Assembly: GCF_003443675.1 (NCBI RefSeq)
Contig: NZ_CP031963.1
Location: forward strand, 2,751,501 to 2,815,500
Direction of reading: 5' to 3'
Origin: Aquimarina sp. BL5
GTDB taxonomy: Bacteria > Bacteroidota > Bacteroidia > Flavobacteriales > Flavobacteriaceae
Length of the DNA stretch: 64,000 nucleotides
In this document: piece after piece, positions 7,406 to 37,073 of the stretch
How positions within the stretch are numbered: position 1 is the stretch's first letter
How the letters are laid out: each line of letters starts with the position of its first letter
The notes under the pieces: model-generated
The model's database searches: none
What the model was told of the DNA's origin: nothing
Seen by the model: the letters and a program-made list of their open reading frames with translations, nothing else
Program-made: the position numbers and the translations under genes

Positions 7406-7600
7406 ATGAAAAATTTATTAAACCTAAATGGGACCAAAGTAATCAGCAGAGATCAGCAAAAAAGTATAACAGGCGGAATGCCACCTCAGAACTGCAGTAC
7501 AGATAGCGATTGCGCTAGTTTTGGTAGTTGTTTTGTTTGCTTACCTATTGGTAGCTGTTTTATGTTTTTCAACAGTCCTTGTGGTGATTCCAACCCATAA
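7406..7600 (+). CDS. Orphan double-glycine-leader peptide precursor, 6 cysteines
   Basis: 64-aa precursor. The leader MKNLLNLNGTKVISRDQQ plus KSITGG matches the pattern of the five precursors at 30.5-32 kb: a hydrophobic N-terminus, Lys-x-Leu/Ile, Gln two to six residues before, and a terminal GG cleavage site. The core after GG is 40 residues with six Cys in the spacing NCSTDSDC - GSCFVC - GSC - SPC. It has its own terminator and no transporter or modification gene beside it. Peptides of this leader type are exported by C39-peptidase ABC transporters, which would have to be encoded elsewhere in the genome. The product could be a bacteriocin or a signal. Confidence 0.8.
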   Translation: MKNLLNLNGTKVISRDQQKSITGGMPPQNCSTDSDCASFGSCFVCLPIGSCFMFFNSPCGDSNP

Positions 7601-8085: not shown

Positions 8086-8823
8086 TTAAAGTTTTTTTAG
8101 CAATTTTTGTGCTTGCTGATAATCCTCAGCTTCTTGTGGCAATAATTTTAATAACTTAGCACATCTACCTATATTTTTCTGCTTCAATTGATTCAGAGCC
8201 TCAAACCAGATAGCTTTGTATTTATAGACAGATGTTCCTTCTTGCAGTTTCTCGAAGATCCCGGACGCCTTATCATATTTATCCTGTTCCACCAAAGTGA
8301 TTCCTAAATAAAAAAGATATTCTGAATTGGAGTTATCATTTTTTAATAACTCGGAAAGATATTTCTCCGCTTCCTGATAGTTTTTCGAATTAAAAGACAC
8401 TTCAGCTTTCTTACCAATTCCATCTTCACTTCCTCTTTCTGTAATGGATAATTCCGGTATCGCAGCAAAATCATTATACGTTGGACCACTTTTAGTAAAT
8501 GTATATACTCCTAAAACAATCGCAACACTTGCTGCAACTGCATATATCCAAGAAGGCATTTTTATTACTTTAGTTTCTTTTTTAGCTGGCTTTTTCTCAA
8601 AAAACGAATCCCCTACTTTTTTCAAATTCTGTTCTAAATCAGACTGATTCTGTTCTAAATTCAGATTAGCATCCAAATAAGAACTCCATTCCTTATAAAC
8701 TCTAAATTCTTCAGCAACTACCTGATCTTCCTCGATTATTCGAGATAACGTCTCTTCTTCCTTATTAGAAAGCTCGTCACTAATTTTTCGCTCAAAAAGT
8801 TCATATTTTTCTTCTGGGGTCAT
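8086..8823 (-). CDS. Membrane TPR protein, putative anti-sigma factor (locus A)
   Basis: 245 aa. Residues 1-~75 form a charged cytoplasmic helical region (MTPEEKYELFERKISDELSN...) of the kind seen in Bacteroidota anti-sigma proteins. Residues 91-110 are one transmembrane helix (SWIYAVAASVAIVLGVYTFT), and residues ~130-245 are periplasmic TPR-like repeats (SFNSKNYQEAEKYLSELLK, YLFYLGITLVEQDKYDKA). The start codon overlaps the stop of the sigma gene (ATGA), implying translational coupling. It aligns along its length with the protein at 32092, sharing a RGS motif after the helix and the repeat pattern. Anti-sigma function is inferred from coupling and topology; no classic zinc (ZAS) motif is seen. 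Confidence 0.75.
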   Translation of the reverse strand: MTPEEKYELFERKISDELSNKEEETLSRIIEEDQVVAEEFRVYKEWSSYLDANLNLEQNQSDLEQNLKKVGDSFFEKKPAKKETKVIKMPSWIYAVAASVAIVLGVYTFTKSGPTYNDFAAIPELSITERGSEDGIGKKAEVSFNSKNYQEAEKYLSELLKNDNSNSEYLFYLGITLVEQDKYDKASGIFEKLQEGTSVYKYKAIWFEALNQLKQKNIGRCAKLLKLLPQEAEDYQQAQKLLKKL

Positions 8824-9407
8824 AACAAATTTTTTATTTTATTATACTTAGGAGCGCTTTGAACCATTTTTGTTAACTGGCCAATACATAGGGACTTCTT
8901 CTTGCGGACATACCCATAGGATTGTCCTAATTTTGATGCTACTTCTTCCATAGACTTTATAGTAAAGGTGGCTTTTAACAACTCTTTACAGGCATTTCCT
9001 AATTGGTCAAATACTTCTTTAAAAAGCTCATTTCTAGCCTCAAAAACTAAGGTTTCGTTAGCAAATTGAACACTCTCATCGTTAATAGATACTACCTCTT
9101 CATTAATTGTTACCTCTTTTGTAGTATTCTTTTTCAACTCATTTAACCACTTCCGTTTACAGAGTAAAAAGAAATAAGCATCAAACGGACAAGTAAGTAT
9201 TAGTCCTTTTTCTATCGTCTGTTTATAAATTGTAATTAAAACTTCCTGAATTATATCCTGAGCCTTGGATTCGTCTCCGCTATTCTTCCTTATGTATCCT
9301 ACAACCTTCGGAGCAAATTTTTCATAGATCTCTTCAATTACTCTACTATCATTATTTAAGAGAGCTTTGATATATTTCTGGTCAGCATGTGCTTTGTTAG
9401 TTCCCAT
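8820..9407 (-). CDS. ECF-type RNA polymerase sigma factor (locus A)
   Basis: 195-aa sigma-70-family regulator with region 2 (ALLNNDSRVIEEIYEKFAPKV, AQDIIQEVLITIYKQ, FDAYFFLLCKRKWLNELKK) and region 4 (LGNACKELLKATFTIKSMEE, followed by an HTH, ASKLGQSYGYVRKKKSLC). It is co-transcribed with the downstream membrane TPR protein and divergent from the lipoprotein gene at 9540. A candidate target promoter, GGGTAA-N12-GTTGTTG, lies in the divergent intergenic region and points to the lipoprotein. Closest relative in the window: the sigma factor at 32889. Confidence 0.9.
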   Translation of the reverse strand: MGTNKAHADQKYIKALLNNDSRVIEEIYEKFAPKVVGYIRKNSGDESKAQDIIQEVLITIYKQTIEKGLILTCPFDAYFFLLCKRKWLNELKKNTTKEVTINEEVVSINDESVQFANETLVFEARNELFKEVFDQLGNACKELLKATFTIKSMEEVASKLGQSYGYVRKKKSLCIGQLTKMVQSAPKYNKIKNLL

Positions 9408-9453
9408 AAATGATTTGTCTGGACATCTAAATTAAAAAAGTTTTTAAGAAAGA

Positions 9454-9478
9454 GGGTAACAAAAAATTAGTGTTGTTG
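9454..9478 (+). promoter_or_regulatory. Candidate ECF promoter upstream of the locus A lipoprotein
   Basis: GGGTAA (9454-9459) followed 12 bases later by GTTGTTG (9472-9478). The same two blocks with the same 18-base offset occur upstream of the locus B lipoprotein (33597-33620). A GGGTAAC-like -35 and GTTG-like -10 would be reasonable for an ECF sigma factor. The start codon at 9540 is 61 bases further on. Confidence 0.55.
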
Positions 9479-9539
9479 ATATGAAGATGTAAACAACAAA
9501 ATTTAGAAAGTCCATATCGGGCAATTAAAACTAAAAAAC

Positions 9540-10580
9540 ATGAAAACAAATAGTACAACAATTACATTGCCGAATGATAGTAAGAATGTAAAACAAAAAA
9601 TGATTAACTTTTTACTTTTAGGTGTAAGTATTCTTTTATTAACAAGCTGTAGTAGCAATGATGACAATGACATTATTGTGGAGCAATTTCTTGATGGATT
9701 AGAATTAGAAACTGAGATTATAGAAAATCGTGAAGAAGCTTTACAAACAACAATTCTAAATGCTGGTGGTTCTGGCGAGGTATATGGAGCAGAAGGTACT
9801 ATCTTATATTTCCCAGTCAACAGCTTTGAAGATCAAAATGGCAATCCTGTTACAGGCGCTGTTACTATAGAATTAATTGAAATCTATGACAAAGCAAAGA
9901 TGCTACTAACAAGAATGCCTACAAACGGAAAACGCCCTAATGGAGATGTAGAAACACTTGTTTCTGGCGGTGAATTTTACATAAATGCCAAACAAAATGG
10001 AGAACAATTACAACTTGTCAATGATTTTATGCTTTTTGCACCTGCAGATGAATTTGATGAGGATATGAGAATCTTTAATGGTCAGAACAATAATTGCGAT
10101 GGAGACGAAATGCAATGTGATATTGTATGGGAAGAAGATGAACAAGGAGGTTTAGAACCAATCCAAAGAGAAGGTCCTAATGGACAAGGAGTTTCGGGAT
10201 ACGGAGGTTTTATTAGCAACTTTGGATGGACAAATTTAGACCGATGGTATAATTTTGAAGGCCCTAAAACAATAGCATATGCAGATGTACCACAAGGTTT
10301 TGATAATACTAATAGCAACGTATACATATCTTATGACGGAGAACCTACAGCATTAGCGCTATTAGATATTTACAACCCAGAAACTGGTTTATTCTCTGAA
10401 CATTATGGGTTACTACCTATTGGATTAGAAGTACACTTCATTTTTGTATCTGTACAAGATGATCAATATGTGTATGCGATCCAAGGTGCAACCATAGGAG
10501 AAAATCATACAGAAGTAATTGGAACTACGACTACTGGAACAGAAGCAGAATTAGTTGCATTAATAAACGATCTCCCGTAG
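9540..10580 (+). CDS. Lipoprotein with ZU5-like beta domain (locus A)
   Basis: Predicted exported lipoprotein. From the ATG at 9600 the N-terminus is MINFLLLGVSILLLTSCSSND, with the lipobox LTSC; the ATG at 9540 adds 20 hydrophilic residues and has an equally A-rich leader, so the true start is unsettled. The following ~110 residues (ILYFPVNSFEDQNGNPVTGA, then VTIELIEIYDKAKMLL) resemble beta-rich ZU5-like modules found in Bacteroidota surface proteins. An acidic, Cys-containing segment (NNCDGDEMQCD) follows, then a beta-rich tail. It is the first gene downstream of the candidate ECF promoter and ends at its own strong terminator. Function unknown. Confidence 0.8.
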   Translation: MKTNSTTITLPNDSKNVKQKMINFLLLGVSILLLTSCSSNDDNDIIVEQFLDGLELETEIIENREEALQTTILNAGGSGEVYGAEGTILYFPVNSFEDQNGNPVTGAVTIELIEIYDKAKMLLTRMPTNGKRPNGDVETLVSGGEFYINAKQNGEQLQLVNDFMLFAPADEFDEDMRIFNGQNNNCDGDEMQCDIVWEEDEQGGLEPIQREGPNGQGVSGYGGFISNFGWTNLDRWYNFEGPKTIAYADVPQGFDNTNSNVYISYDGEPTALALLDIYNPETGLFSEHYGLLPIGLEVHFIFVSVQDDQYVYAIQGATIGENHTEVIGTTTTGTEAELVALINDLP

Positions 10581-10637
10581 ACAAACTTCACACTGGAATA
10601 TGCATATTAGGTGATGGGGGTTACAGTAAATTTCAGA

Positions 10638-10668
10638 AAAATTCCGGAAGTTGACCTTCCGGAATTTT
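10638..10668 (+). terminator. Intrinsic terminator after the locus A lipoprotein
   Basis: Perfect 13-bp stem aaaattccggaag / cttccggaatttt with a 5-base loop, 57 bases after the lipoprotein stop. It separates the lipoprotein from the PKD-CHAT-protease operon, which therefore probably has its own promoter; a TATCTTTA box at 10711-10718 is a possible -7 element, without a convincing -33. Confidence 0.88.
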
Positions 10669-10737
10669 AATTCACTAAAGATTGTAATATCTGCGATTTA
10701 ACTTTTTGTTTATCTTTATTAACACTAACAACAAATC

Positions 10738-12720
10738 ATGAATAGATTTTCGGCTTTATTTACAACCTTATTGTTTCCTTTTCTCTGTATTGGACAAATA
10801 TTAACTAACGACACCATACCCAGAATAGCACCAATATCCTATGAAATCCAAGGAAATCAAGTAAATTACAAGGCCAAAATGCCTACTCTTAATCAAATTG
10901 CTGGTGCTCCTAAGGCTTTCTACACTTATTATTGGGAATTTGGAGATGGTAATTATAGTTTTAAATCAACCCCAACACATACCTATAAAAAAAATGGCAA
11001 ATATGATGCTAAATTATGGGCAACAAATAACTATGACAACGGAAAACCTCCCGCAAGCAGACCAAAATCTGTAAACGTCGATAACGTACAAGACGAAGCA
11101 TCTATTGAAGATAATTTTCCTTTCACTGAAGATGATGATTTGATTTTAAAAAGAAATCGCGAACCCATTCCTGATCAAGAAATGGTGTTTATTACTAGCT
11201 ACAAGAATAATAATAACTATGTCTCCAGTGGGAAATTATATCTGTTTTATAATGACAGACAATTTAAGAATGATAATTTTATTATAGAAGATACTCGATT
11301 ACATTATGGAGAACGAATCGTTCCTTTGGATGCTGTTACCACCATACTTCCGGAAAATGATGATCGCTCTTTATTAGTTTCAAACAGTACTTCTTCATTA
11401 TATAATCAAACGCTTTTCGTACAAGACACTACCAAACGAAAAAACTTTCCGCTTACGCTAGAAGAATCAAAAGCCTTATACCGAAGTTATCAGATCATAG
11501 AATTTGAGGATATGAAACCAGGAGAAGAGCGCAATATCTTTAGAACATTGAAAACTACTCCAGAGATGATCAAAGATACCAGTGCCATTGTAACGCTAAG
11601 AAGTGTATATGTCCCTGACAATAATTTTGATAATCATACCGTAAAGGATACTGAGATGGAAATTGTTACTTCTCATGATCCCAATAAAATGTCCTCTAAT
11701 GGTTTTTTAATGAATTACCGTTTAGTGAGATTTAAACGATTAAAATTCAAAGTACGATTTCAGAATAACGGAGAAGGTCCTGCTAACACCATAAAACTAC
11801 AGGTGGATACTCCAGAAATGTTTGACAAATCCTCACTTAGAATTGAAGGCATGTATCCAGAATGCCCAATTTGTCCAAAAGAACGAGAAGTAAATTACAG
11901 TTGTCTAGATACTATTTTACAAAAAGATAAAATCATATTTCAATTCAATAGAATTTACCTTCCTGGAAGCGAACAGAAAAATGTAGCCGAAATTGATTCT
12001 ACTAAAGGTTTTGTAAAATACTCGATGAAATTTGGCAAAAACTTTCATAAGAAAAAGACCCGAAGCAGAACTGCTATTTATTTTGACAAAAACGAACCTA
12101 TTATTACCAATTATGCCACTACCCGATTCTTACCTGGAGTTTCGATTGGTGTAAAAGCAGGGTATATTACAGTTCCCGAATTAAATAATCAAAGAGAATA
12201 TTTTGTAGGAGCCACGCTTTCTCCATTCAAATCGTATAGAGGATATTATCAGGCAGAACTGCTATTGTCTGCATCTTCATTTGATGAAATAAGAAATTTT
12301 GAAACCAGATCTACGCAAGCTAATGGAATAGAAAATCTTATAGAATTCTCTGAAGCGAACAAATACAATAGTATCTCTGTATATGCTGTACCAGCTTCTT
12401 ACCGATATAACTTTACCAATTTTTTGGCTATGGGTGCGGGAATTCAATTAAAACTAGATATCACAAGCACAAATGATCAAGAAACAACAGGCACAGGATT
12501 TATTATCGAAGAACAAGGACAAATAATCACTCCTGATCGAGATTTAGACTCTTTTGTCGCGCAAGAAATAGATGATAGTTTTACCAATTTTCAAACCGGA
12601 GTTTTTGTTGGAATGAATCTAGGAACTATTCGGATCGGACCTAGTCTGGGTGTTAGATACGTATACAATTTCGATACTCCGAATTCTCAAATTCAGTTTT
12701 ATGGGATTTGGAAATTTTAA
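10738..12720 (+). CDS. Secreted PKD-domain protein with C-terminal barrel-like region (locus A)
   Basis: 660 aa with a signal peptide at residues 1-20 (MNRFSALFTTLLFPFLCIGQ). A PKD fold at ~60-110 is marked by YYWEFGDGNYSF and HTYKKNGKYDAKLWAT. The middle region (~300-450) begins SHDPNKMSSNG and resembles the DUF11-like beta modules that follow PKD domains in Bacteroidota, including a C-P-x-CP cluster (PECPICPKE). The last ~190 residues (GVSIGVKAGYITVPEL to FYGIWKF) have alternating aromatic strands ending in Phe, like an outer-membrane barrel. The CHAT gene begins inside its 3' end, so the two are coupled. Likely an outer-membrane or surface component of the locus; ligand unknown. Confidence 0.8.
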   Translation: MNRFSALFTTLLFPFLCIGQILTNDTIPRIAPISYEIQGNQVNYKAKMPTLNQIAGAPKAFYTYYWEFGDGNYSFKSTPTHTYKKNGKYDAKLWATNNYDNGKPPASRPKSVNVDNVQDEASIEDNFPFTEDDDLILKRNREPIPDQEMVFITSYKNNNNYVSSGKLYLFYNDRQFKNDNFIIEDTRLHYGERIVPLDAVTTILPENDDRSLLVSNSTSSLYNQTLFVQDTTKRKNFPLTLEESKALYRSYQIIEFEDMKPGEERNIFRTLKTTPEMIKDTSAIVTLRSVYVPDNNFDNHTVKDTEMEIVTSHDPNKMSSNGFLMNYRLVRFKRLKFKVRFQNNGEGPANTIKLQVDTPEMFDKSSLRIEGMYPECPICPKEREVNYSCLDTILQKDKIIFQFNRIYLPGSEQKNVAEIDSTKGFVKYSMKFGKNFHKKKTRSRTAIYFDKNEPIITNYATTRFLPGVSIGVKAGYITVPELNNQREYFVGATLSPFKSYRGYYQAELLLSASSFDEIRNFETRSTQANGIENLIEFSEANKYNSISVYAVPASYRYNFTNFLAMGAGIQLKLDITSTNDQETTGTGFIIEEQGQIITPDRDLDSFVAQEIDDSFTNFQTGVFVGMNLGTIRIGPSLGVRYVYNFDTPNSQIQFYGIWKF

Positions 12721-15301
12721 ATCATTGCTATGGGTTCTTATGTTCCTATGCCTAGAAACTCAAGTACTCCACAGTCAACAAAAAACGCAAACTTCAAAAT
12801 TCCTGTATGATCAGTTAGATTATTTTTTACAAAATCCATCTACACCTGGATTACTTAGGTTGAGTAAAATAACGCTATCCAAAGAAAATCAACTTATAAC
12901 CGAAGAAGATAAATTAGCCTGGGTCATCCTTCATGCCAACATGGGATATTACCACAATCAATTTGGAAACATCCCAACAGCTATTGTCTATTACGAAAAA
13001 GCATGGAAAACATTCAACAACAATAAGCTCGCAGATTATGATATTATAGAAAATTGTTTGCAACTATTAGGAAACTTATATATCAAAATTGGAGATTTAC
13101 AAAAAGCAGAAAATACGATTACTAATTATTTATATCTGGCTGAGCAATCTCAAAATACTCCTAAAATAATTTCAGCCATCACGAACCTATCTGTTGCTTA
13201 TAACAATAAAAGTAATTATCAGAAAGCGATTACAATACTTCTAAAAGGTGAAGAAATAGCTCCAAAAAACGTAAATATCTTAACAAATTTAGCCACTAAC
13301 TATCTGAATTCCGGATCAATAGAAGAAGCTCGAAAATACGCATCAAAAGCAATCTCGATCGATGTTACCCAGGTAAATGCTTACCAAATCTTAGCAGCAA
13401 TCGCACTAGAAAACAAGGAACTACAAAATGCAAAAAACTATATCCACAAGGCAAAACTTCAGTTATTAAAAAAACCAAATACATCAGCACGAGATATTGC
13501 AAAATGGCAATTAGCTTATATAGATATTCTACTTTCTAAATCAGCATATACAGAAGCATTAAAAAATCTTAAAGAAATCTATGCGTACCTACTTCCTGAA
13601 TATTCTTCGGATATGGATTTTCCGAAAAAGGAAATTCTTATAGCAGACAGAATCTTAATGAAAGCATTAGATGTACAGGCATATATCCATCAGCAATTAG
13701 AAGATCCTATTTTAACCATTAATGCGCTTGAGGCAGCTTTTGAGGTAAACTCAAAATTAAATACCACGTATCCATTACAAAACACAAAAATTATTCAGCA
13801 TAGTCAAAACCGAAATCGTACCGAAACCTACATTGATCTTTTATACTCTTTACACACTAGCACAAAAGATGCGAAATATGTTGTAAAAGCATTTGAAGCG
13901 GCAGAAAATTCTAAAGCACCTTTTGTTAATGAAGCTTTACTATCTAAGCAACTATTAATACAATATAAAAACGATTCGTTAGTAAAGAGAAACAATGAAC
14001 TTACTAACGAACTAGCAGCATATGACACCTACATCTTAAAGGAAAAACAAAAAGAAGACAAAGCCGATATCTCACAAATTCAAAAATGGACATCGGCATA
14101 TGAAATGACATCTATCGACCTTAAGGAGGTAACTCAAAGGCTTCAGAAAAAATATCCCAATCTTCTTTTAAAACAAGAAAAAGTTTCACTTTCAGCGCTT
14201 CAGGAAAAACTAAAACAAGATGATCTTACTTTAATTGAATACTTTTTTGGCAAAAAAACTGTGTATCAGTTCAAAATTGATGCAAATTCAATTGAAATAA
14301 CAAAAACTAAAGATATTGAGCATTTTAGAATCATCATCCAAGACTATATCGGTTATTTCAACAAAGCCGCTACTATCACCAATAATGTAAAGGGTTTTGC
14401 AGAAAGCAGTTTTGAATTATATAACATATTAAAGGTTCCAAACACTAAAAAAATAGTAATTATTCCTGATGGGTTACTCAATTTTATCCCTTTTGAAACA
14501 TTATTGACTAAAAAAACTAATGTTCTGAGTTTCGAGAAAATGCCATTTTTACTCAAATCCAGTATTATCAGTTATGAAATTTCTGCAAATAAGTATTTGA
14601 GATCAAATAGTAATAATATAAAACCAAAAATTTTAGGAGTCTTCCCGGTTTTTGAAAACACCAATATAGAACTTCCTTTCTCTCTTGAAGAACAAAGCTA
14701 CATGCAACAAAAATTTGATGGTGTGTTTCTAAAAAAAGAAGAAGCAACCTATGCACGTTTTCTGGATGAGGCAAAAAAACATTCAATTTTACATCTATCT
14801 ACCCACGCAGAAGCAGGAAGTTTTTCAAGACCAGCCTCTATACAATTCAGAGATCAGAACATCCTAGTAAATCAGTTATACGGATTACAATTAGAAGCTG
14901 ATTTGGTAGTACTAAGTGCTTGCGAAACTGGTATTGGCACTTTAGCCAAAGGAGAAGGCCCTCTTAGCATTGGCAGAGGATTTCAATATGCCGGAGTACC
15001 AAATGTATTGTTTTCGTTATGGAAAGTAAATGACAAAACTACTTCTCAATTAATGCACTATTTTTATCAAAATCTACATCTTTCTAACTCCTATGTCCAC
15101 GGATTACATAAAGCAAAATTAGATTTCCTTGAAGCAAAAGAAATCTCTAACACCCAAAAATCACCATATTACTGGGCTTCATTTGTATATTATGGAAACT
15201 ATCAATCTCTGACTGAAGAGAAATCAAATTGGATATTTATAATCGGAGGATTCTTATTAATTATACTATTTTTGTTCGTGATTCGACAAAAATTAAAATG
15301 A
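12701..15301 (+). CDS. TPR-CHAT caspase-like protein (locus A)
   Basis: 866 aa from the ATG at 12701, which overlaps the upstream gene by 20 bases; a signal peptide follows (MGFGNFKSLLWVLMFLCLETQ). Residues ~70-350 are tetratricopeptide repeats (YYHNQFGNIPTAIVYYEKA and similar), ~430-520 a coiled-coil-like linker, and ~560-830 the CHAT domain. The catalytic dyad is visible: His702 in HLSTHAEAG and Cys741 in LSACETGIG, followed by the conserved GEGPLSIGRGFQYAG and LFSLWKVND motifs. A transmembrane helix sits at the very C-terminus (IFIIGGFLLIILFLFVI), so the protein is probably held in the inner membrane with the protease in the periplasm. CHAT proteins are caspase/separase relatives. Substrate unknown. 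Confidence 0.9.
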   Translation: MGFGNFKSLLWVLMFLCLETQVLHSQQKTQTSKFLYDQLDYFLQNPSTPGLLRLSKITLSKENQLITEEDKLAWVILHANMGYYHNQFGNIPTAIVYYEKAWKTFNNNKLADYDIIENCLQLLGNLYIKIGDLQKAENTITNYLYLAEQSQNTPKIISAITNLSVAYNNKSNYQKAITILLKGEEIAPKNVNILTNLATNYLNSGSIEEARKYASKAISIDVTQVNAYQILAAIALENKELQNAKNYIHKAKLQLLKKPNTSARDIAKWQLAYIDILLSKSAYTEALKNLKEIYAYLLPEYSSDMDFPKKEILIADRILMKALDVQAYIHQQLEDPILTINALEAAFEVNSKLNTTYPLQNTKIIQHSQNRNRTETYIDLLYSLHTSTKDAKYVVKAFEAAENSKAPFVNEALLSKQLLIQYKNDSLVKRNNELTNELAAYDTYILKEKQKEDKADISQIQKWTSAYEMTSIDLKEVTQRLQKKYPNLLLKQEKVSLSALQEKLKQDDLTLIEYFFGKKTVYQFKIDANSIEITKTKDIEHFRIIIQDYIGYFNKAATITNNVKGFAESSFELYNILKVPNTKKIVIIPDGLLNFIPFETLLTKKTNVLSFEKMPFLLKSSIISYEISANKYLRSNSNNIKPKILGVFPVFENTNIELPFSLEEQSYMQQKFDGVFLKKEEATYARFLDEAKKHSILHLSTHAEAGSFSRPASIQFRDQNILVNQLYGLQLEADLVVLSACETGIGTLAKGEGPLSIGRGFQYAGVPNVLFSLWKVNDKTTSQLMHYFYQNLHLSNSYVHGLHKAKLDFLEAKEISNTQKSPYYWASFVYYGNYQSLTEEKSNWIFIIGGFLLIILFLFVIRQKLK

Positions 15302-15735
15302 CAACACTCCGCCAGTTTCTAATTGAAAAAGAATATCATCGTATTAAACTTGTGTATACCAAAACCAATCATTTTGAGGTAAAAGCAATGCTTAATGGCA
15401 TAGCGGGTAATTTTATTGTAGATACTGGAGCGTCTAACTCGTGTGTTGGTTTTGATGCGGTAGAAAAATTTAATCTTTTCGCGCAGGACAGTGATGTAAA
15501 GGCTGCTGGCGCTGGTGCTACAGACATGCTTACACAGCTTTCTAAAAAAAATACGCTACAGCTTGGCAAATGGTCAAAAAAAAGTATTTCACTCATTTTA
15601 TTTGACCTTACTCACGTAAATACTGCACTTATCGCACATCAAGCGGAACCAGTAGACGGTATAATCGGTGCGGATGTTTTAAAAAGAGGAAAAGCCGTTA
15701 TAGATTATGAACGAAAGTGTCTTTACCTTAAATAA
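15298..15735 (+). CDS. Retropepsin-like aspartyl protease (locus A)
   Basis: 145 aa. Single-domain clan AA aspartyl protease: catalytic Asp42 in FIVDTGASNSC, with the hydrophobic flap-like region and the C-terminal IIGADVLKRGKAVIDYERK motif that retropepsin-like bacterial proteins share. It would be active as a dimer. The ATG overlaps the stop of the CHAT gene (ATGA), so it belongs to the same operon. No signal peptide, so a cytoplasmic location is likely. A protease-protease pairing with CHAT is notable. Confidence 0.85.
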   Translation: MTTLRQFLIEKEYHRIKLVYTKTNHFEVKAMLNGIAGNFIVDTGASNSCVGFDAVEKFNLFAQDSDVKAAGAGATDMLTQLSKKNTLQLGKWSKKSISLILFDLTHVNTALIAHQAEPVDGIIGADVLKRGKAVIDYERKCLYLK

Positions 15736-17213: not shown

Positions 17214-17804
17214 ATGGAAGGATATATTGGAGAAGTACGCATGTTTGGTGGCAGTTTTGCACCAAGAGCTTGGGCATTTTGCGAAGGACAGTTACTGGCA
17301 ATATCGCAAAACGATGCATTATTTTCAATTCTAGGAACTACATATGGAGGTGATGGAAGAACCTCTTTTGCCTTACCAGATCTAAGAGGGCGTGTGCCAA
17401 TTGGAGCTGGGCACGGGCCTGGGTTATCAGATCATCGAATAGGACAAAAAAGTGGAGCTGAAAACAATACATTAAATATTCTACAAATGCCTTCTCATAA
17501 CCATATCGGTATTATTAATTCAACATCGGTTGCCAATATATCCATACCTGTATTGGCGGATGCGGCTGATCTTGCTGATCCATCTAATGCCACTTTAGCT
17601 ACTTCAGAAGATACCAATGGTTCAGAAGTCAAGACCTATAGCAACCAAGCCGCAGATGCAAATCTTGCTCCGTTTACTGCTCCATTAGCAGGAGGTGTCG
17701 ATATTGGCCAAACTGGAGGAAATCGACCTGTAAATAATATGCAACCCTGGTTAAGTACTTATTATATTATTTGTTTGCAAGGGATTTATCCTTCTAGAAG
17801 TTAA
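17214..17804 (+). CDS. Phage-tail-collar domain protein (MdpB-like), copy 1
   Basis: 196 aa. The N-terminal phage tail collar domain is unmistakable: MEGYIGEVRMFGGSFAPRAW, FCEGQLLAISQNDALFSILG, TYGGDGRTSFALPDLRGRVP, then MPSHNHIG. The C-terminal half ends NNMQPWLSTYYIICLQGIYP-SRS. These are features of the microcystin-dependent-protein family, found in chromosomal tandem arrays as well as phage tail fibres. No other phage genes are present. It follows the formyltransferase by 46 bases and precedes a near-copy by 34 bases. Confidence 0.9.
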   Translation: MEGYIGEVRMFGGSFAPRAWAFCEGQLLAISQNDALFSILGTTYGGDGRTSFALPDLRGRVPIGAGHGPGLSDHRIGQKSGAENNTLNILQMPSHNHIGIINSTSVANISIPVLADAADLADPSNATLATSEDTNGSEVKTYSNQAADANLAPFTAPLAGGVDIGQTGGNRPVNNMQPWLSTYYIICLQGIYPSRS

Positions 17805-17838
17805 AAAAATTAAAATCAACTATTAAAAACACAAGATT

Positions 17839-18429
17839 ATGGAAGGAACAATGGCAGAAATCAGAATATTTGGTGGGAGTTTTGCACCGAGAAATTGGGC
17901 ATTTTGTGCAGGACAATTAATGCCAATCAGTCAAAATCAAGCTTTATTTTCATTGTTAGGCACTATCTATGGCGGAGATGGGAGAACTACATTCGCACTA
18001 CCAGACCTAAGAGGTCGCGTCCCAATAGGCCCTGGAACTGGACCAGGCCTAACTAATCGTAGAGAAGGGCAAAGAGGAGGTGCGGAGTATAATATTCTAA
18101 ATGCTAATCAATTACCATCTCACAACCATACCGCTACTTTTAATGCGAATGCTGTTGCCAATATATCAGTCCCTGTATTAGCAGATGCAGCAGATCTAGC
18201 TGATCCATCTAATGCTACTTTAGCTACTTCAGAAGATACTGGCGGCTCGGAAGTAAAAACTTATAGTAATCAACCTTCCGATGCTACATTAAAACCATTC
18301 ACAGCTCCATTGGCTGGAAATATTGATGTAGGCTTAACTGGTAATAATCAACCAATAAACAATATGCAGCCTTGGCTGTCAACATATTACATCATATGTC
18401 TTCAAGGAGTTTTTCCTTCAAGAAGTTAA
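17839..18429 (+). CDS. Phage-tail-collar domain protein (MdpB-like), copy 2
   Basis: 196 aa and the same length as copy 1, with matching motifs throughout: MAEIRIFGGSFAPRNW, GGDGRTTFALPDLRGRVPIG, QLPSHNHTA and NNMQPWLSTYYIICLQGVFP. Residues ~108-140 are almost identical to copy 1 (PVLADAADLADPSNATLATS), so this is a fairly recent tandem duplication. Probably a structural or adhesive trimer-forming protein; no signal peptide is visible. Confidence 0.9.
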   Translation: MEGTMAEIRIFGGSFAPRNWAFCAGQLMPISQNQALFSLLGTIYGGDGRTTFALPDLRGRVPIGPGTGPGLTNRREGQRGGAEYNILNANQLPSHNHTATFNANAVANISVPVLADAADLADPSNATLATSEDTGGSEVKTYSNQPSDATLKPFTAPLAGNIDVGLTGNNQPINNMQPWLSTYYIICLQGVFPSRS

Positions 18430-30517: not shown

Positions 30518-30724
30518 ATGTTATCAAAAATTTTAGCAGTAAAAGGTGTTCAGGAATTGAACAAAAAACAACAAAGATCGGTCAAAGGAGGTATTACATT
30601 TCCTGTATCAGATGATTGTGGATGTATCGTTATGGGACGTAATGGATATCTTGAAATTATCGCAGTATCCTGCAGCAGCACATGTCCTGATGGTACTGAT
30701 CCAATTGGCGGCTTAGGATTTTAA
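30518..30724 (+). CDS. Double-glycine-leader peptide precursor 1 of the cluster, 4 core Cys
   Basis: 68 aa. The leader MLSKILAVKGVQELNKKQQR-SVKGG ends in GG; the core of 43 residues has Cys in DDCGC and VSCSSTC, no membrane helix and a glycine-rich end (PIGGLGF). It starts 31 bases after the VKOR fusion gene and is followed by a terminator-like hairpin. Precursor of a secreted, probably disulfide-stabilised peptide; activity unknown. Confidence 0.85.
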   Translation: MLSKILAVKGVQELNKKQQRSVKGGITFPVSDDCGCIVMGRNGYLEIIAVSCSSTCPDGTDPIGGLGF

Positions 30725-30893: not shown

Positions 30894-31088
30894 ATGTTAC
30901 AATCAATTTTAAATCTTACCGAGGTTAAAACATTAAACAAGACACAACAAAAATTAATTTCTGGAGGCTATATACCTACCTTAGAACAATTCTGTTGTGG
31001 ACCACGTTCTCAAGGGTGGTGGATTCAGCAATATCCCTTTCTAGGAAATGATCCTTATTACACTTGCACTTACGACGTGTGTAATTAA
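30894..31088 (+). CDS. Double-glycine-leader peptide precursor 2, 4 core Cys
   Basis: 64 aa. The leader MLQSILNLTEVKTLNKTQQK-LISGG has the same layout as its neighbours. The core of 39 residues is aromatic (GWWIQQYPF, DPYYTCTY) with a vicinal CC pair (QFCCGPRS) and two further Cys near the C-terminus. A 223-base stretch without a gene follows. Confidence 0.85.
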   Translation: MLQSILNLTEVKTLNKTQQKLISGGYIPTLEQFCCGPRSQGWWIQQYPFLGNDPYYTCTYDVCN

Positions 31089-32091: not shown

Positions 32092-32886
32092 TTAGTCTAT
32101 AACCAATAACAACTCTTTTGCTTTATTATAATTAAAATTAGTGGAATCACTAATTATACTAGAAAGTGTTTTCTTTAATTCTACCTTATCATTCATCCTT
32201 AAATATATCAAGCTTTTATACCATAAAGCCTTAGATTTATCTAAAGAAACAGAATGCAATAGCTTATCAAAACTACTTAGCGCATCTTTTGTCTTATCTA
32301 ATTCGAGATATGAAATTCCTATATAACTATATATTAACGGATCATTATTTTCTTTTAAATAATCTTCGAAAAAAGTGATCGCTTTTTCATACTTCTTAGC
32401 TTTGAAGGCTATAATCCCATTATTCAAAAATTCATTTTGAGATCCTCTTTTAACTATAGAAGGAAGATCATTTTCTGTATAATATTTTGAGTACAAATCA
32501 GTGGTAGATGAATTTTGATTTAAAAAAATAGCAGATAATAATACAATGGTAAAAATACCAGCAATAGAAGTAATGAATATTCGTCTTCTTAACGAATACT
32601 GTGATTTTTTATACCTTTTTCCTGCAGTACTTATATTGGATTTTATTTCAGTAGCTTCATTACTCTTAATGTAATCTTCTATATCATTTCTTGCCTGTTT
32701 ATTTTTAGTTCCCTTCAAAGAAAGCCAGCTTTCCTTGTTTAAATGATGATTAATTTCATTAGCTAAATTCACCTCCTTTTTCAACTCCATATCCTTTGAC
32801 ATCATTAGCTCAAACTGTTCTTGCTCTTCAGAAGTCATATAACCACACAAATAGGCTTCAATTTTCTTATATATCTCTTCGTCCAT
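32092..32886 (-). CDS. Membrane TPR protein, putative anti-sigma factor (locus B)
   Basis: 264 aa with the layout of the locus A protein at 8086: a charged cytoplasmic helical region (residues 1-~95, MDEEIYKKIEAYLCGYMTSE), one transmembrane helix at 102-122 (IFITSIAGIFTIVLLSAIFL) and a periplasmic TPR-like part (AFKAKKYEKAITFFEDYLKE, YSYIGISYLELDKTKDALSS). The post-helix motif LPSIVKRGS is matched by a similar RGS motif in locus A. It starts 2 bases after the sigma gene stop, so coupling is likely. Anti-sigma role inferred. Confidence 0.75.
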   Translation of the reverse strand: MDEEIYKKIEAYLCGYMTSEEQEQFELMMSKDMELKKEVNLANEINHHLNKESWLSLKGTKNKQARNDIEDYIKSNEATEIKSNISTAGKRYKKSQYSLRRRIFITSIAGIFTIVLLSAIFLNQNSSTTDLYSKYYTENDLPSIVKRGSQNEFLNNGIIAFKAKKYEKAITFFEDYLKENNDPLIYSYIGISYLELDKTKDALSSFDKLLHSVSLDKSKALWYKSLIYLRMNDKVELKKTLSSIISDSTNFNYNKAKELLLVID

Positions 32887-32888
32887 TT

Positions 32889-33452
32889 TTAACTTAAATC
32901 TTGATATTTACTATCTCTTTTAATAAGCTCTGCTAAGCGTTTTTTGCATTTAAAAACCCTTTGGAAAGCTACATTTTCTGATGAATAATTAAACTTCTCT
33001 ACAATTATATCATACGACACTTTATTAAAATAATCCTTTAAAAGTTTGATACAATTATCCGAGAGTTGATTCATCTTTTCCTCAAAAAGTTCCCAACGTT
33101 CTTGTTCCAAAATAAACGAGCTATGTTTATTTTCTTCAATGACTAGTTCTTTTACATCTGTATTTCTTACCCTATTTTTTCGTTTATTTAATTCTTTACG
33201 CCAAAGATTTTTACAAACGGTAAATAAATATCCTTCGAATGTGGATGTGATTTCAAATTTTCTAACTTTTAATCTAACAATTAACTGAAATAAAGCATCT
33301 TGAAAAACCTCTTCTGCATCTTGATAACCTCCTTTATTTTTTCTTACAAAAGATAAAACTGGCTGGAAGTTATTCTTATAAATCTCGTCAATCACAGATT
33401 GATCACCAGATAAAAGACCTTCCAAATAGTTTTTACTTTCTAATTTTTGCAT
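32889..33452 (-). CDS. ECF-type RNA polymerase sigma factor (locus B)
   Basis: 187 aa. Region 2 is visible as GLLSGDQSVIDEIYKNNFQP, DAEEVFQDALFQLIVRL and FEGYLFTVCKNLWRKELNKR; region 4 as QLSDNCIKLLKDYFNKVSYD followed by the HTH, VEKFNYSSENVAFQRVFKCK. It shares the CK-LW-ELNK signature with the locus A sigma (CKRKWLNELKK). Divergent from the lipoprotein at 33668, with the candidate ECF promoter between them. Confidence 0.9.
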   Translation of the reverse strand: MQKLESKNYLEGLLSGDQSVIDEIYKNNFQPVLSFVRKNKGGYQDAEEVFQDALFQLIVRLKVRKFEITSTFEGYLFTVCKNLWRKELNKRKNRVRNTDVKELVIEENKHSSFILEQERWELFEEKMNQLSDNCIKLLKDYFNKVSYDIIVEKFNYSSENVAFQRVFKCKKRLAELIKRDSKYQDLS

Positions 33453-33620: not shown

Positions 33621-33667
33621 ACTATATTATATAAAGAATAGATAATATTTAAACTTTAAAAACTAGT

Positions 33668-34147
33668 ATGAAAACAAAAAAAGTAATTTGGGGATTGTTG
33701 ATTTCATTTATCACTATAAGCTGTTCTACAGATGACTCCCTCATTGAAAATGAAAAAAACACGAAAAACTCACTCAATAAATCTTTCTATTTCGATCCAG
33801 AAGATCTAGGAGAAGAACATGAATACGGCATGCCTTTCGATAATAGTTATGAAGGTGAAGGCTTAATAATAAAATTAGTATATCATACAGAAAACGAAGA
33901 TAAGCGAACAAAAATTCGTAGGGAGTTTTCAAATAAACATTCTGATTTAGTCTTGGTCAAAATAGCAACACCAGAATCTGAAGTAGAACATTGGTTTTTG
34001 ACATACTTGTCTGGAATAGATTATTCTAGAGGCGCACAAGATTTACCAGAAGAAGATGACGATCCAAGTACAATTGATCTTTTATATGAATATAGAAACA
34101 TTATTTCAAAAATTAGATCAAATGACAGAATTAATATATATGAATAA
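33668..34147 (+). CDS. Small acidic lipoprotein (locus B)
   Basis: 159 aa. Signal peptide MKTKKVIWGLLISFITISC with the lipobox ITISC and Cys19 as the lipidation site. The mature part is acidic, with a predicted alpha/beta region (REFSNKHSDLVLVKIATPES) and an acidic patch (LPEEDDDPSTID). It does not resemble the locus A lipoprotein except in position, which suggests a variable client or sensor. First gene after the candidate ECF promoter, 94 bases before the CHAT gene. Function unknown. Confidence 0.8.
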   Translation: MKTKKVIWGLLISFITISCSTDDSLIENEKNTKNSLNKSFYFDPEDLGEEHEYGMPFDNSYEGEGLIIKLVYHTENEDKRTKIRREFSNKHSDLVLVKIATPESEVEHWFLTYLSGIDYSRGAQDLPEEDDDPSTIDLLYEYRNIISKIRSNDRINIYE

Positions 34148-34241
34148 TAAAACTTCATATAAGTTTTAAAAATATATTAAATAAGTGGTATAAGGGTATA
34201 TAATTTTTATCTTGGAGTAGAACTATATACCCTTTTTATTG

Positions 34242-37073
34242 ATGCATTTAAAAAGTTACTATTTACTCCTAACACTTTTTATTCTTTATCTTCACTCTAA
34301 TGCACAAACTGCTACCAATTGGGAGACTATTTTAGCTTCGGATCTAACTATAGTACAAAAGCGTACTAAAATTGATTCTTTAGTTAGCTTTTACAAAAAA
34401 CAAGGAAACGATTCTTTATTGGAGCGCATAACCCATAAATATGCTATATGGCACTATAAAAATACTTCTCTAGACCTTGCAATACGAACAGCAAAGCAAT
34501 CTTTAGAATTAAAGAAAAAAATGACTCCTACCAACCCTTCATTAATTCAGCATGGATTAAAAAATCTTGGGTTTTTCGCTTATAAACAAGGTAATTATTC
34601 TAGAAGTATTGCATATAATGAAGAGATAATTGCTATTAATTCTAAAAACGATTATGCTGCAGATGCATATTCTAAATTAGGTAGATGCTATACTAATATT
34701 TACGATTATCATAATGCTGTAGTTCATTTTGAACTAGCAAATTCTCTATTTTGGGATAATAAAGATTATAGAAGCATTGTGGCCAATGCCATTAATGCTG
34801 GTAAATTATATATAAAAATTGGCACTGTAAATAGTTTGAAAAAAGGAATTAAAAATGCTTTAATAGCAGACTCCTTATCATTACAAATTAAATCAAGAGC
34901 AACAACAAGATACAATCTGAAAATTATTTTAGGAACACTTTATAATCAGGATGATAATCTAAACACGAAAAAAGCTTCTTTCTATTATGATCAAGCTTTG
35001 TCTATAGCTAAAGATCTTAAGGATTCAATCCTAATCGCAAAAACTTATGAACTTAAGGGAAACCTTTACAACACTGTAGATCAGGATCTAGCAATTCAAT
35101 ACCATCAAAAAGCTATTCGAAACTTTACAAAAAATGACTCCGTATCTTTGGCGATTAGCATATCCAATATTGGATTTTGTTTGGTGGAGCAGCAGAAATT
35201 TAAAGAAGGTTTTACTCATTATCAAAAGGCTATTAGTTATTTTACAGGACAAAAACTAAATAACCGGGAAGTTTCCTCGCAAACAAATATATTGTCTGAA
35301 ACATTAGATTCATCGCATCTTTTAACAACTTTAGAGGATCTAGCAGATGCGTATTTAAAACATTATCGATCTACAGATGATCAATTGTCTCTTAATAAAT
35401 CAATTAATACATTTTTACTCGCTGACGAAATGATCGATCTAATTCGTATTGAGAGTCAGGAATTTCAATCCAAACTATATTGGCGTAAACATAGTTCTGC
35501 CTTATATGGACGAGCAATAGAAGCTTGTTTTCTTGCCGAGGATATCGACAATGCCTTTTATTTTATGGAAAAAAATAAGGCGTTAATTTTAACAGAAGAT
35601 ATAACGAACAACAGACTTAAACAGTCAATTTTACTACCAGAAAATATAGTAAACAGAGAAATTAAACTTCAGAAAAATATATACTTACTTAATAAATTAA
35701 AAAATAAGGGTTCCAATAAAAAAGAACTCGATATTATTACCATAAAAATTTTAGATCTTAAAAGAAATTTAAAAAAATTACAGGATAGTATAAAAGATAT
35801 TTTTTCGGATTACTCTAAGTTTAACGTTCAGTCTTCTCCTATTACCAGTCTTAAATCTATCCAAAAAAAACTTGATGATCAAACCGTTCTTGTAGAATAC
35901 AATATATCTAACCACATTGATTTTAAATCTATTGATGATGATAATGGTTATACTCCAATCTACGAAGGAAGTGATTATGGCAAAAGAGAGTATTCTAAAG
36001 GATACCTTGTTTACATTACTAACGACGAGAGCCATCTCATACAATTACCCAATATCGATAACCTAAAAAACACTGTTGATTTATTCATCAAAAAATCCGC
36101 TATTCCTTTTGGCACAGAAAAAGATATTGTATCATACTCTGATATTGGGCATAAAGTTTTTAAGTATCTATTTCCTAACGAAAAGATCAAGGAAATTATA
36201 TCTGGCAAAAAACTAATTATTATTCCTGACAATTATTTAAACTATGTTCCTTTTGAAGCATTAGTAACTACTAGCAATTTAGCTAAAAAGCCTAAATACC
36301 TGATTGAAGATTCGGAGATCAGTTATGGATATTCAAATTTCTTCCTGAAAAATTCATCAGATATTGTTTCTCCTAAAAGTAAAGTTTCGTTTCTAGGTTT
36401 TGCTCCAGGTAATTTTGAAAAATATAACCTACCCCCTATTGAGAACAATAGGAATGAGGTTAATAATATCAGTAGCCTCTTTTCTGGAGAAGTATTGATA
36501 AATGATAATGCTACTAAAGAAAATTTTCTTACTAAACTAAAAGATCAAAACATCATACATCTGGCAACACATGCAGATGCTCTAGATTCTATTTCGCCTT
36601 GGATTGCTTTTAGTAATAATAAATTAGACCTTGAAGAATTATATCTTACTAAAAACCAAGCTGACCTAGTAGTACTAAGTGGTTGCAATACATTACTCGG
36701 CAAACAAGAAACTGGAGAAGGAGTGATGAGTCTAGCCAGAGGTTTTTTTCATTCTGGTGCCAAAAGTGTAGTTTCTTCTTTATGGAATGTTGATGATAGA
36801 TCCACATCCTATATAATGAACGAGTTTTACAAAAACTTAAAAAATCAACAAACTAAATCACAAGCTTTAAGAGAGGCTAAACTAAAATATCTTAGGAATA
36901 GCTCTTTATCAGAAAGCTCTCCACATTTTTGGGCTACGTTTGTTTTATTAGGCGATACTAGTCCGATATCAATCCATTACTATCCATATGCTTATTGGTC
37001 ACTTATCTTATTACCTATTATTCTCTTCATTTGCATAGTATTATATAGAAGATCTAAAAAGAGAGATTCTTAA
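34242..37073 (+). CDS. TPR-CHAT caspase-like protein (locus B)
   Basis: 943 aa from the ATG at 34242; a TTG lies one codon earlier. Signal peptide at ~1-20 (LKSYYLLLTLFILYLHSNAQ), TPR repeats at ~55-380 (FAYKQGNYSRSIAYNEEIIA, KLGRCYTNIYDYHNAVVHFE), a helical linker, then a CHAT domain at ~640-905. The catalytic dyad is His777 (HLATHADAL) and Cys815 (LSGCNTLLG), followed by GEGVMSLARGFFHSGAKSVV and SSLWNVDDRSTS. A C-terminal transmembrane helix (YWSLILLPIILFICIVLYRR) ends in basic residues. Same domain order as the locus A protein; the SGCNT motif replaces SACET. Confidence 0.9.
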   Translation: MHLKSYYLLLTLFILYLHSNAQTATNWETILASDLTIVQKRTKIDSLVSFYKKQGNDSLLERITHKYAIWHYKNTSLDLAIRTAKQSLELKKKMTPTNPSLIQHGLKNLGFFAYKQGNYSRSIAYNEEIIAINSKNDYAADAYSKLGRCYTNIYDYHNAVVHFELANSLFWDNKDYRSIVANAINAGKLYIKIGTVNSLKKGIKNALIADSLSLQIKSRATTRYNLKIILGTLYNQDDNLNTKKASFYYDQALSIAKDLKDSILIAKTYELKGNLYNTVDQDLAIQYHQKAIRNFTKNDSVSLAISISNIGFCLVEQQKFKEGFTHYQKAISYFTGQKLNNREVSSQTNILSETLDSSHLLTTLEDLADAYLKHYRSTDDQLSLNKSINTFLLADEMIDLIRIESQEFQSKLYWRKHSSALYGRAIEACFLAEDIDNAFYFMEKNKALILTEDITNNRLKQSILLPENIVNREIKLQKNIYLLNKLKNKGSNKKELDIITIKILDLKRNLKKLQDSIKDIFSDYSKFNVQSSPITSLKSIQKKLDDQTVLVEYNISNHIDFKSIDDDNGYTPIYEGSDYGKREYSKGYLVYITNDESHLIQLPNIDNLKNTVDLFIKKSAIPFGTEKDIVSYSDIGHKVFKYLFPNEKIKEIISGKKLIIIPDNYLNYVPFEALVTTSNLAKKPKYLIEDSEISYGYSNFFLKNSSDIVSPKSKVSFLGFAPGNFEKYNLPPIENNRNEVNNISSLFSGEVLINDNATKENFLTKLKDQNIIHLATHADALDSISPWIAFSNNKLDLEELYLTKNQADLVVLSGCNTLLGKQETGEGVMSLARGFFHSGAKSVVSSLWNVDDRSTSYIMNEFYKNLKNQQTKSQALREAKLKYLRNSSLSESSPHFWATFVLLGDTSPISIHYYPYAYWSLILLPIILFICIVLYRRSKKRDS

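Follow-up and report, generated by a model that had tools for sequence, protein, structure and literature searches.

A putative CHAT protease-controlled ECF sigma switch with a transmembrane anti-sigma-like partner in Aquimarina sp. BL5

In a window of 64,000 nucleotides from Aquimarina sp. BL5 (the whole stretch of DNA analysed here), we found a six-gene locus, called locus A, that is probably a protease-controlled sigma switch, in which a membrane-anchored TPR-CHAT protein would act as site-1 protease, cut a transmembrane (TM) anti-sigma-like protein at Arg130 (R130) and thereby free an ECF sigma factor. We give this reading a probability of about two in three. A CHAT-controlled sigma switch had been suggested in the first-pass annotation; the non-random linkage of CHAT genes with sigma pairs, a predicted cut site at R130 and a matching pocket change in the protease speak for it, but the accompanying ideas of a lipoprotein substrate and an exported retropepsin were not borne out. 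CHAT genes are common in the phylum (148 of 296 sampled genomes), yet in the literature found, bacterial CHAT proteases are described mostly from CRISPR type III-E.

All six ORFs of locus A were confirmed, and the sigma and TM-TPR genes diverge from the lipoprotein, PKD, TPR-CHAT and retropepsin genes (Table 1). The sigma and TM-TPR genes are coupled on one strand, as annotated earlier, and overlap as ATGA; the retropepsin ATG at 15298 overlaps the CHAT stop codon in the same form. The better start of the TPR-CHAT gene is ATG 12701, which gives 866 aa, and counted from this start the earlier numbering of His702 and Cys741 is correct and both residues are intact.

Table 1 Features of locus A and of the second copy, system B, in positions of the window
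Feature	Position	Strand	Basis
TM anti-sigma-like TPR protein, 245 aa	8086..8823	-	one TM segment, then TPRs
Arg130 codon, predicted P1 residue of site-1 cut, periplasmic linker	8434..8436	-	residue conservation
ECF sigma factor (SIG), 195 aa	8820..9407	-	TIGR02937 E 2.7e-14; Sigma70_r2 over cut-off
Predicted sigma-dependent promoter GGGTAACA-N-TTGATAT of lipoprotein-CHAT operon	9454..9482	+	exact pattern match
Lipoprotein (LIPO), 346 aa	9540..10580	+	ORF; acidic stretch after lipobox Cys, by eye
PKD + DUF7619 + C-terminal DUF7849 protein, 660 aa	10738..12720	+	Pfam matches
TPR-CHAT protease, 866 aa	12701..15301	+	Pfam CHAT E 3.4e-43
Glu599 of PFE motif, second inferred pocket acid	14495..14497	+	conservation
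His702, catalytic	14804..14806	+	conservation
Cys741, catalytic	14921..14923	+	conservation
Asp778, helix start after active site, inferred S1-pocket residue for P1 arginine	15032..15034	+	paired change with R130
Single-domain retropepsin-like aspartyl protease, 145 aa	15298..15735	+	PF13650 E 1.5e-10; ATG 15298
System B: TM-TPR protein 32092-32886, sigma 32889-33452	32092..33452	-	
System B: small lipoprotein 33668-34147, TPR-CHAT 34239-37073	33668..37073	+	

The TM-TPR protein is predicted to have a cytoplasmic four-helix N-domain (residues 1-75), a TM helix (about 86-105), a periplasmic linker and a TPR domain (135-245); in the model of the N-domain, pLDDT drops to 52-68 after residue 50. 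Its gene is paired with that of an ECF sigma factor, and the membrane span follows what appears to be a helical cytoplasmic domain, which is the arrangement of TM anti-sigma factors. The anti-sigma model NF052375 (NCBIfam) matched 14 of 44 members of the family, and the family N-domain had matches in 11 further proteins encoded in this genome, and for 10 of them the start lies 26-112 nt past a same-strand ECF sigma match (this spacing check drew on 31 of the 52 sigma matches). From this family evidence we infer that the TM-TPR protein is an anti-sigma factor. Its own Pfam matches were to TPR or other helical-repeat families, and the Foldseek matches listed for the whole model were mostly TPR folds, which were uninformative on the N-domain. 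As for FecR-type surface signalling, a Pfam scan of eight locus proteins gave no receptor and, for the TM-TPR protein, no FecR domain; nor was FecR among the 25 Pfam families listed, out of 43, for other members of the TM-TPR family.

The TPR-CHAT protein matched the CHAT domain (PF12770) with 148.6 bits against a cut-off of 24, and with H702 and C741 in place it belongs to the CHAT family. It reads as a signal helix (6-24), a TPR array, the CHAT domain and a C-terminal TM segment (844-865), so the exported protein is predicted to be anchored by its C-terminal helix with the protease facing the periplasm. The AlphaFold2 model had a mean pLDDT of 88.5, and its closest structural matches were Csx29/Craspase TPR-CHAT chains, followed by separase and DdvA; the profile search of the PDB was run with the CHAT domain alone because TPR chains dominated the matches to the full CHAT alignment. 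The Cys741 position was Cys in all 109 CHATs surveyed, and the His702 position was His in 65/65 sigma-paired CHATs and in 13/13 extra ones, with one CHAT (L111) in both sets.

The linkage of CHAT with the sigma pair was then assessed in relatives, in this genome and in the reverse direction, and in each case the neighbourhood was non-random, as the earlier reading of the locus needed. The sigma and TM-TPR genes adjoin CHAT in all 20 fetched orthologous loci (the ECF sigma gene was found in each), and the full divergent order is kept in 67 of 80 named loci, with Flavobacterium johnsoniae strain CI04 (L169) among the carriers of the locus. Eight of the 10 CHAT genes of this genome have an ECF sigma gene and a TM partner no more than 5 kb away, which compared with a chance of about 0.1 per CHAT gives P ~6e-7. 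Among non-orthologous CHATs, a sigma gene and a TM-sized partner were present for 40 of 56 with a C-terminal TM segment versus 5 of 33 without it (Fisher 2.4e-7). In the reverse direction, 22/22 full-length TM-TPR matches in four genomes of the genus were at most 5.7 kb from a CHAT domain, each from a different CHAT, and the next match after these was a partial one with 41.6 bits; in 17 other genomes, 33 of 38 TM-TPR matches were within 10 kb of CHAT. This genome has eight copies of the core cassette, which is also found in other families of the class. Outside the class, a CHAT-sigma link was seen for 2 of 23 sampled CHATs, both doubtful, and at three loci (L160, L173, L203) about 8 kb before CHAT is present and holds no sigma/anti-sigma pair. 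All CHAT matches in a plasmid search had less than 60% identity.

The CHAT survey took the best-scoring CHATs listed from the same family and class, and, further out, a single CHAT for each family (21 of 22, with one skipped at the end of a contig), so low-scoring CHATs are absent from the pair survey. Five of its 65 pairs (L102, L105, L111, L130, L134) were dropped by eye from the residue and tree statistics, but they are still counted as pairs in the Fisher test and in the 65/65 for His702. The family match was weaker for L102 (E 2e-9) and L130 (E 5e-8) and missing for L134 and L105, and the L105 partner resembles a methyltransferase; the L111 partner belongs to the TM-TPR family yet lacks R130, and its CHAT keeps Asp778.

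R130, in the linker between the TM helix and the TPR domain, was the most conserved residue of the partners in the first survey (58/59) and was present in 72/72 named orthologues, although the two sets overlap in part, as 8 of the 16 named Aquimarina loci are on contigs surveyed before. It is not universal: when 13 more distant partners (12 and L111) were added, 64 of 72 CHAT-linked partners had it and eight did not. In 73 linked pairs, R130 went with Asp778 in 65/65, and a non-Arg residue (M, K, Q or a gap) went with a non-Asp residue in 7/8 (p 5e-9, or 5e-8 without the locus A orthologues). Residue 778 ranked first among 46 conserved CHAT columns for association with the partner residue, in a column test that was done after the pattern at 778 had been noticed. 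The CHAT tree has about four changes at Asp778 and about five at R130. Residue E664 also differs between the two kinds of system (44/45 of the Arg systems versus 1/8 of the non-Arg ones), so part of the signal at 778 may be general divergence. The alignments were partial (A1, 44/59 partners; A2, 50/60 and A4, 31/60 CHATs; A3, 14/21), and the linker alignment of the distant partners is uncertain.

In a separase model described in PMC4626109, the P1 arginine is bound by Asp1082, where helix alpha4 starts. In the TPR-CHAT model residue 778 starts the helix that matches separase alpha4, which would put Asp778 at the place of the separase residue that binds P1 arginine. The second putative pocket acid, at Glu599, was acidic (E or D) in 59/60 system CHATs and 13/13 extra ones regardless of the partner residue, and was missing in 5 of 80 named CHATs. 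From the conservation and the paired changes of substrate and pocket, we infer that CHAT cuts the anti-sigma protein after R130.

The strongest competing explanation is that the locus holds a regulator and its effector only, which means that the sigma factor controls the CHAT operon, the protease has its target elsewhere (an invader, a surface protein, the PKD protein or the lipoprotein) and R130 has a structural or ligand-binding role. A promoter before the lipoprotein-CHAT operon would by itself explain the linkage; the linker (121-134) was modelled at pLDDT ~86-88, so R130 may be structural; and TM-TPR proteins without a CHAT neighbour kept R130 in 3/5 cases, with K once and V once (in a broken copy). 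An early, smaller count had suggested that loss of R130 tracks loss of CHAT, but with more partners the p value was 0.12 and we dropped it as evidence. However, this genome has 41 ECF sigma factors over cut-off, and still the full-length TM-TPR protein was found only beside CHAT in the four genus genomes; nor would a bystander protein explain why the linker residue changes jointly with residue 778 of CHAT. We therefore consider this explanation unlikely, though it deserves to be kept in view.

It is also conceivable that CHAT is a non-proteolytic sensor, whose TPRs bind the anti-sigma protein and alter sigma binding allosterically, with the cut made by another protease or by none. Both proteins have TPR arrays in the same predicted compartment, and the module trees correlate across 38 systems (L068 was excluded because of a split sigma ORF), which equally speaks for the cutting model. 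Against the cutting model, when only this genome was taken four of the 10 correlations missed significance, and that between the TPR parts of partner and CHAT gave r 0.24 (p 0.20). As for the sensor, every system CHAT examined has the catalytic His and Cys, and the linker residue of the partner goes with the putative pocket residue, which makes a pure sensor improbable. Least probable of all is a defence switch, compatible with the cutting model, that senses attack by phages or rivals and gives immunity as its output as in the Myxococcus xanthus DdvS regulon: DdvA has the same TPR-CHAT fold and, according to a review, DdvS controls an antiphage island, but with PADLOC the ten window proteins scanned gave no more than a weak TPR match, for CHAT, and a match of the retropepsin to the candidate model PDC-M08B.

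For the proposed switch, the family evidence suggests a resting state in which the N-domain of the TM-TPR protein, on the cytoplasmic side, would keep the ECF sigma factor bound at the inner membrane. CHAT may be activated by a signal from the envelope that perhaps reaches it through the lipoprotein and the PKD protein, though this step is speculative. CHAT would then cut the anti-sigma protein after Arg130, and by analogy with RseA the remaining stub would be processed by a site-2 protease, for which the genome has one gene, so that the sigma factor becomes free. The freed sigma factor may transcribe the lipoprotein-PKD-CHAT operon from the GGGTAACA-N-GATAT promoter and produce positive feedback, a step suggested by promoter conservation. 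The promoter match at 9454-9482 is exact, the pattern having been derived from that same site, and in Aquimarina the pattern is conserved 5' of the orthologous operons; in Flavobacterium it is conserved there with drift. A genome-wide regulon from this pattern was rejected (5 sites versus 3 in the reversed control).

The lipoprotein was detected in 19 of 20 orthologous loci; no functional name occurred among the 120 homologues listed, two of which carry domain labels (DUF4382, DUF4367), and no cut-site evidence was found for the suggestion that it is the CHAT substrate. DUF7849 occurs once in the genome, in the PKD protein, which may be an outer-membrane barrel. The retropepsin has the intact DTG motif of aspartyl proteases that was read earlier, but no signal peptide was seen by eye, so it is probably cytoplasmic rather than exported. 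Of the 20 orthologous loci 18 have it, as do 64 of the 80 named loci, although some of the 16 loci without it end at a contig edge. We rejected it as site-1 protease on the missing signal peptide and on its absence from 2/20 orthologous and non-detection in 16/80 named loci; it looks like an accessory, apparently cytoplasmic protein.

If the switch operates as proposed, an outside signal would probably reach gene activity through an envelope-anchored caspase/separase-like enzyme with no CRISPR genes beside it. For many membrane-anchored CHATs the model would supply the substrate, the site of cleavage and the output, separase-type proteolysis would be linked to bacterial envelope signalling, and a possible origin of the CRISPR protease-sigma module would be suggested. 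A wider reading is that separase-like cassettes are present in multiple copies in the class, that each periplasmic, membrane-anchored CHAT cuts its paired TM anti-sigma protein at one linker residue, usually Arg, that pocket and substrate have co-evolved repeatedly into different specificities, and that Craspase is a re-wired and DdvA a fused form of the same switch; for this we regard the case as evenly balanced.

Several known systems resemble parts of locus A. According to PMC8999054, the ECF54 group has CHAT, subtilase or carboxypeptidase genes nearby and proteolytic control has been proposed for it. It shares with locus A an ECF sigma factor with a CHAT gene in the neighbourhood, but ECF54 has no anti-sigma factor whereas locus A has an anti-sigma-like partner. 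In RseA/DegS/RseP and RsiW, as outlined in PMC10028731, a TM anti-sigma factor is cut outside first, as is proposed here, and then by a site-2 protease, but at locus A the site-1 cut would fall to a cysteine protease of the caspase/separase type, whose gene stands beside that of its substrate. Separase itself (clan CD, C50) is eukaryotic and cuts cohesin, unlike the bacterial locus A.

The closest known systems are Csx29/Csx30/CASP-sigma of CRISPR type III-E and DdvA, a one-piece anti-sigma protein with the TPR-CHAT fold that the first-pass annotation did not mention. DdvA reportedly has a zinc anti-sigma domain, and autoproteolysis in trans is said to have been proposed for it. DdvA/DdvS of Myxococcus xanthus (PDB 8rot, 8rw5) is also an ECF sigma system with the TPR-CHAT fold, but DdvA is one polypeptide, whereas the anti-sigma and TPR-CHAT proteins are two proteins from two genes in the pairs examined; unlike DdvA, the locus A anti-sigma protein has its own TPR domain and an N-domain consensus with no conserved Cys or His. 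Type III-E shares with locus A a TPR-CHAT protease with a His-Cys dyad. Its CHAT protease does not cleave a sigma-holding protein, as the first-pass annotation had summarised it: according to PMC10028731, Csx29 is switched on by Cas7-11 with target RNA and cuts Csx30, a sigma inhibitor, at a site where alanine substitution revealed no essential residue but where loop length matters. At locus A, in contrast, CHAT is predicted to be periplasmic and membrane-anchored, the candidate inhibitor is a single-pass TM protein with TPRs, and Pfam found no Cas proteins among the eight proteins in and around the locus. The Craspase TPR-CHAT chains (8d9h and others, which are not the Csx29 of PMC10028731) have Ser at Asp778 and His at Glu599. 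In searches of open-licence literature for this layout, for DdvA and for clan CD proteases, no two-gene system of a TM anti-sigma protein and CHAT was among the papers listed; the DdvA papers and the ECF reclassification paper lie outside it, so prior print is possible. Relative to the one-piece DdvA and the CRISPR-tied Csx29, the two-protein form of anti-sigma protein plus CHAT protease appears to be new.

In the single-contig source genome (6.01 Mb), where the window spans G000:C1:2751501-2815500, all six ORFs that the first-pass annotation had placed at locus A were found. The best start of the CHAT gene was the ATG at 12701, which gave a 20-nt overlap with the end of the PKD gene, and its stop overlapped the aspartyl-protease start as ATGA. 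Topology and folds of the locus A proteins were predicted by modelling. The CHAT model (pLDDT 88.5) combined a signal-like helix at the N-terminus with a TPR array, the CHAT domain and, at the C-terminus, a TM helix (844-865), an arrangement that should put the catalytic domain on the periplasmic side. Loop 743-750, directly behind the catalytic Cys, had a pLDDT below 50 and may be a sign of a switchable state.

The neighbourhood of CHAT was non-random: the sigma pair (ECF sigma gene and TM-TPR partner) was kept, divergent from the CHAT operon, in 20/20 fetched loci with a full-length relative of the locus A CHAT (19 from the same genus, one from another family). These loci also carried PKD (20/20, one split), a detected lipoprotein (19/20) and the aspartyl protease (18/20). 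In genomes G010 and G048, CHAT identity was down to 44 and 36 per cent and the flanks were different, and sigma, TM-TPR, lipoprotein, PKD and CHAT remained together. Among the best 80 of a larger number of loci from named genomes, sigma and the lipoprotein were each found near CHAT in 73, TM-TPR in 71, PKD in 79 and the aspartyl protease in 64. The full divergent order was seen in 67 loci, among them those of Flavobacterium johnsoniae CI04, Dokdonia and Cellulophaga, and Parachryseolinea had the pair on the opposite side of CHAT. Eight named loci were without both sigma and TM-TPR at the threshold used; five of them (L162, L193, L194, L205, L208) had 1.8 to 4.1 kb of DNA ahead of CHAT, and the other three (L160, L173, L203), with approximately 8 kb, look like true absences.

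The sigma/TM-TPR/CHAT pattern extends wider than locus A. The source genome has 10 CHAT genes, and 8 of them, locus A counted, lay no more than 5 kb from both an ECF sigma gene and the gene of a TM protein (chance approximately 6e-7, given 52 sigma-like matches, 41 over the cut-off), in divergent, convergent or tandem orientation. When locus-A orthologues were excluded (89 CHATs), the pair accompanied 40/56 CHATs with a C-terminal TM versus 5/33 without (p 2.4e-7). Among 23 CHATs sampled outside the class, the link was not seen (2/23, both doubtful). The reverse test, from TM-TPR profile A1 to a CHAT neighbour, is sharper than the test from CHAT to pair: in four genus genomes with 31 CHAT domains, each of the 22 full-length matches had a CHAT domain of its own no more than 5.7 kb away, the next match being partial (41.6 bits), and in 17 genomes outside the genus 33/38 matches (E 1e-20 or better) were within 10 kb of CHAT. 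A separate subgroup is formed by membrane-anchored genus CHATs of about 1080-1190 aa with no sigma gene within 8 kb (L040, L070, L071, L073, L074, L077, L078).

Coordinates of features at locus A and elsewhere (L numbers, fetched loci; G000, source genome)
Feature	Location	Strand	Remark
System B	window 32092-37073		Complete cassette of sigma, TM-TPR, small lipoprotein and TPR-CHAT, the second in the window, ~16 kb away from locus A
Small peptides with double-glycine leaders (e.g. MKNLLNLNGTKVISRDQQKSITGG)	window 7406-7600, 30518-30724, 30894-31088, 31803-31982	+	Near locus A and system B
Predicted sigma-dependent promoter GGGTAACA-N-TTGATAT	9454-9482		Between sigma and lipoprotein genes
Closest other genomic match to this promoter	L229 3366-3393; G000:C1:1714865-1714892	-	Precedes the gene of a 53-aa double-glycine-leader peptide by 28 nt (strand as in L229)
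CHAT Glu664	window 14690-14692		
Two tandem paralogous 196-aa proteins	window 17214-18429		After formyltransferase gene, downstream of locus A; presumably resemble phage tail-collar relatives
1767-aa CHAT-type protein	L047 7015-12318	-	No signal peptide or TM; CHAT Cys present, no His aligned
Broken TM-TPR copy	L237 7338-7892	-	No sigma or CHAT nearby; Val at linker Arg position

The TM-TPR protein is read as a putative TM anti-sigma factor. Its residues 1-75 were modelled as four helices, the last at low confidence, and the family profile, in its N-terminal portion, matched 11 other proteins of the source genome. Ten of these begin 26 to 112 nt past a same-strand ECF sigma match, and the eleventh is divergent from a sigma gene. 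An NCBIfam anti-sigma model matched 14/44 family members, and no zinc ligands were prominent in the family consensus.

In the first survey, R130 was the most conserved residue of the entire TM-TPR protein (58/59). Located 20 to 35 residues past the TM segment, this linker residue is followed mostly by G, S or N, and was present in 72/72 named orthologues, whose loci are partly shared with that survey. At this position, 13 more distant linked partners had R (6), M (3), K (2), Q (1) or a gap (1), and the total over linked partners was 64/72, so the linker arginine is not invariant. Partners that lost CHAT kept R in 3/5, no different from linked partners (p 0.12), and this, together with a linker modelled at fair confidence, counts against reading R130 as a cut site. 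We infer that CHAT would cut the anti-sigma at R130, the candidate site.

The linker residue and CHAT residue 778 changed together. In 73 pairs, R was accompanied by Asp778 in 65/65 and non-R by Glu or Asn in 7/8 (p 5e-9; L111 was the exception), and without locus-A orthologues the counts were 45/45 and 7/8 (p 5e-8). Residue 778, the first of the helix after the active site in the model, ranked first among 46 well conserved CHAT columns for association with the linker residue. Glu664 ranked second, kept in 44/45 R-type versus 1/8 non-R systems, so some general divergence is mixed into the 778 signal. On a CHAT tree built without column 778, Asp778 changed about 4 times and the linker Arg about 5 times, with paired changes in L121/L241/L242, L240/L249, L248 and L244; L243 (R and Asp) clustered closely with L248 and L244 (support 0.998). 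Met replaced the linker Arg in a subgroup of partners (L121, L241, L242, L248), and Glu was at 778 in CHATs L250-L252 and L121. Glu599 of the PFE motif was acidic in 59/60 system CHATs and 13/13 extra ones, and therefore does not discriminate R from non-R systems.

The predicted promoter was kept ahead of the operon in Aquimarina relatives and also, though drifted, in Flavobacterium. Of the named loci, 65/73 had a G[GT]TAAC element, counted on both strands, in the 200 nt that precede sigma, and the element was present in 22/39 non-orthologous systems versus 39/277 control upstream regions (p 2.6e-8, for a pattern picked after inspection); the unbiased top hexamer was GTTAAC (p 3.2e-5 of 1564 tested, borderline once corrected). 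Like the genes, their linkage and the conserved and paired residues, these elements are observed at the sequence level. In the natural model, sigma would drive transcription of the CHAT operon as a positive feedback switch; a site-2 protease gene was found in the source genome. The signal, and roles for the lipoprotein, PKD protein and aspartyl protease, would be speculative. The 53-aa double-glycine-leader peptide gene is a possible second sigma target. Peptides similar to the small ones near locus A and system B were close to other sigma-CHAT cassettes (L044, L045, L046, L079-L081, L088).

The same-clan proteases separase, gingipain R and paracaspases cleave after Arg, and metacaspases after Arg or Lys. 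A published separase model has P1-Arg bound by two acids, Glu917 and Asp1082, the latter where helix alpha4 begins behind the active site (PMC4626109). By position and motif, CHAT 778 would correspond to Asp1082 and CHAT Glu599 to Glu917. For the type III-E system, no single Csx30 residue is described as essential for the cut (PMC10028731); cleavage of Csx30 falls between residues 427 and 429, with Met427 in its loop described as required, beside which the Met-type linker subgroup was noted. Craspase TPR-CHAT chains have Ser aligned at 778 and His at 599, whereas the locus A CHAT has Asp778 and Glu599.
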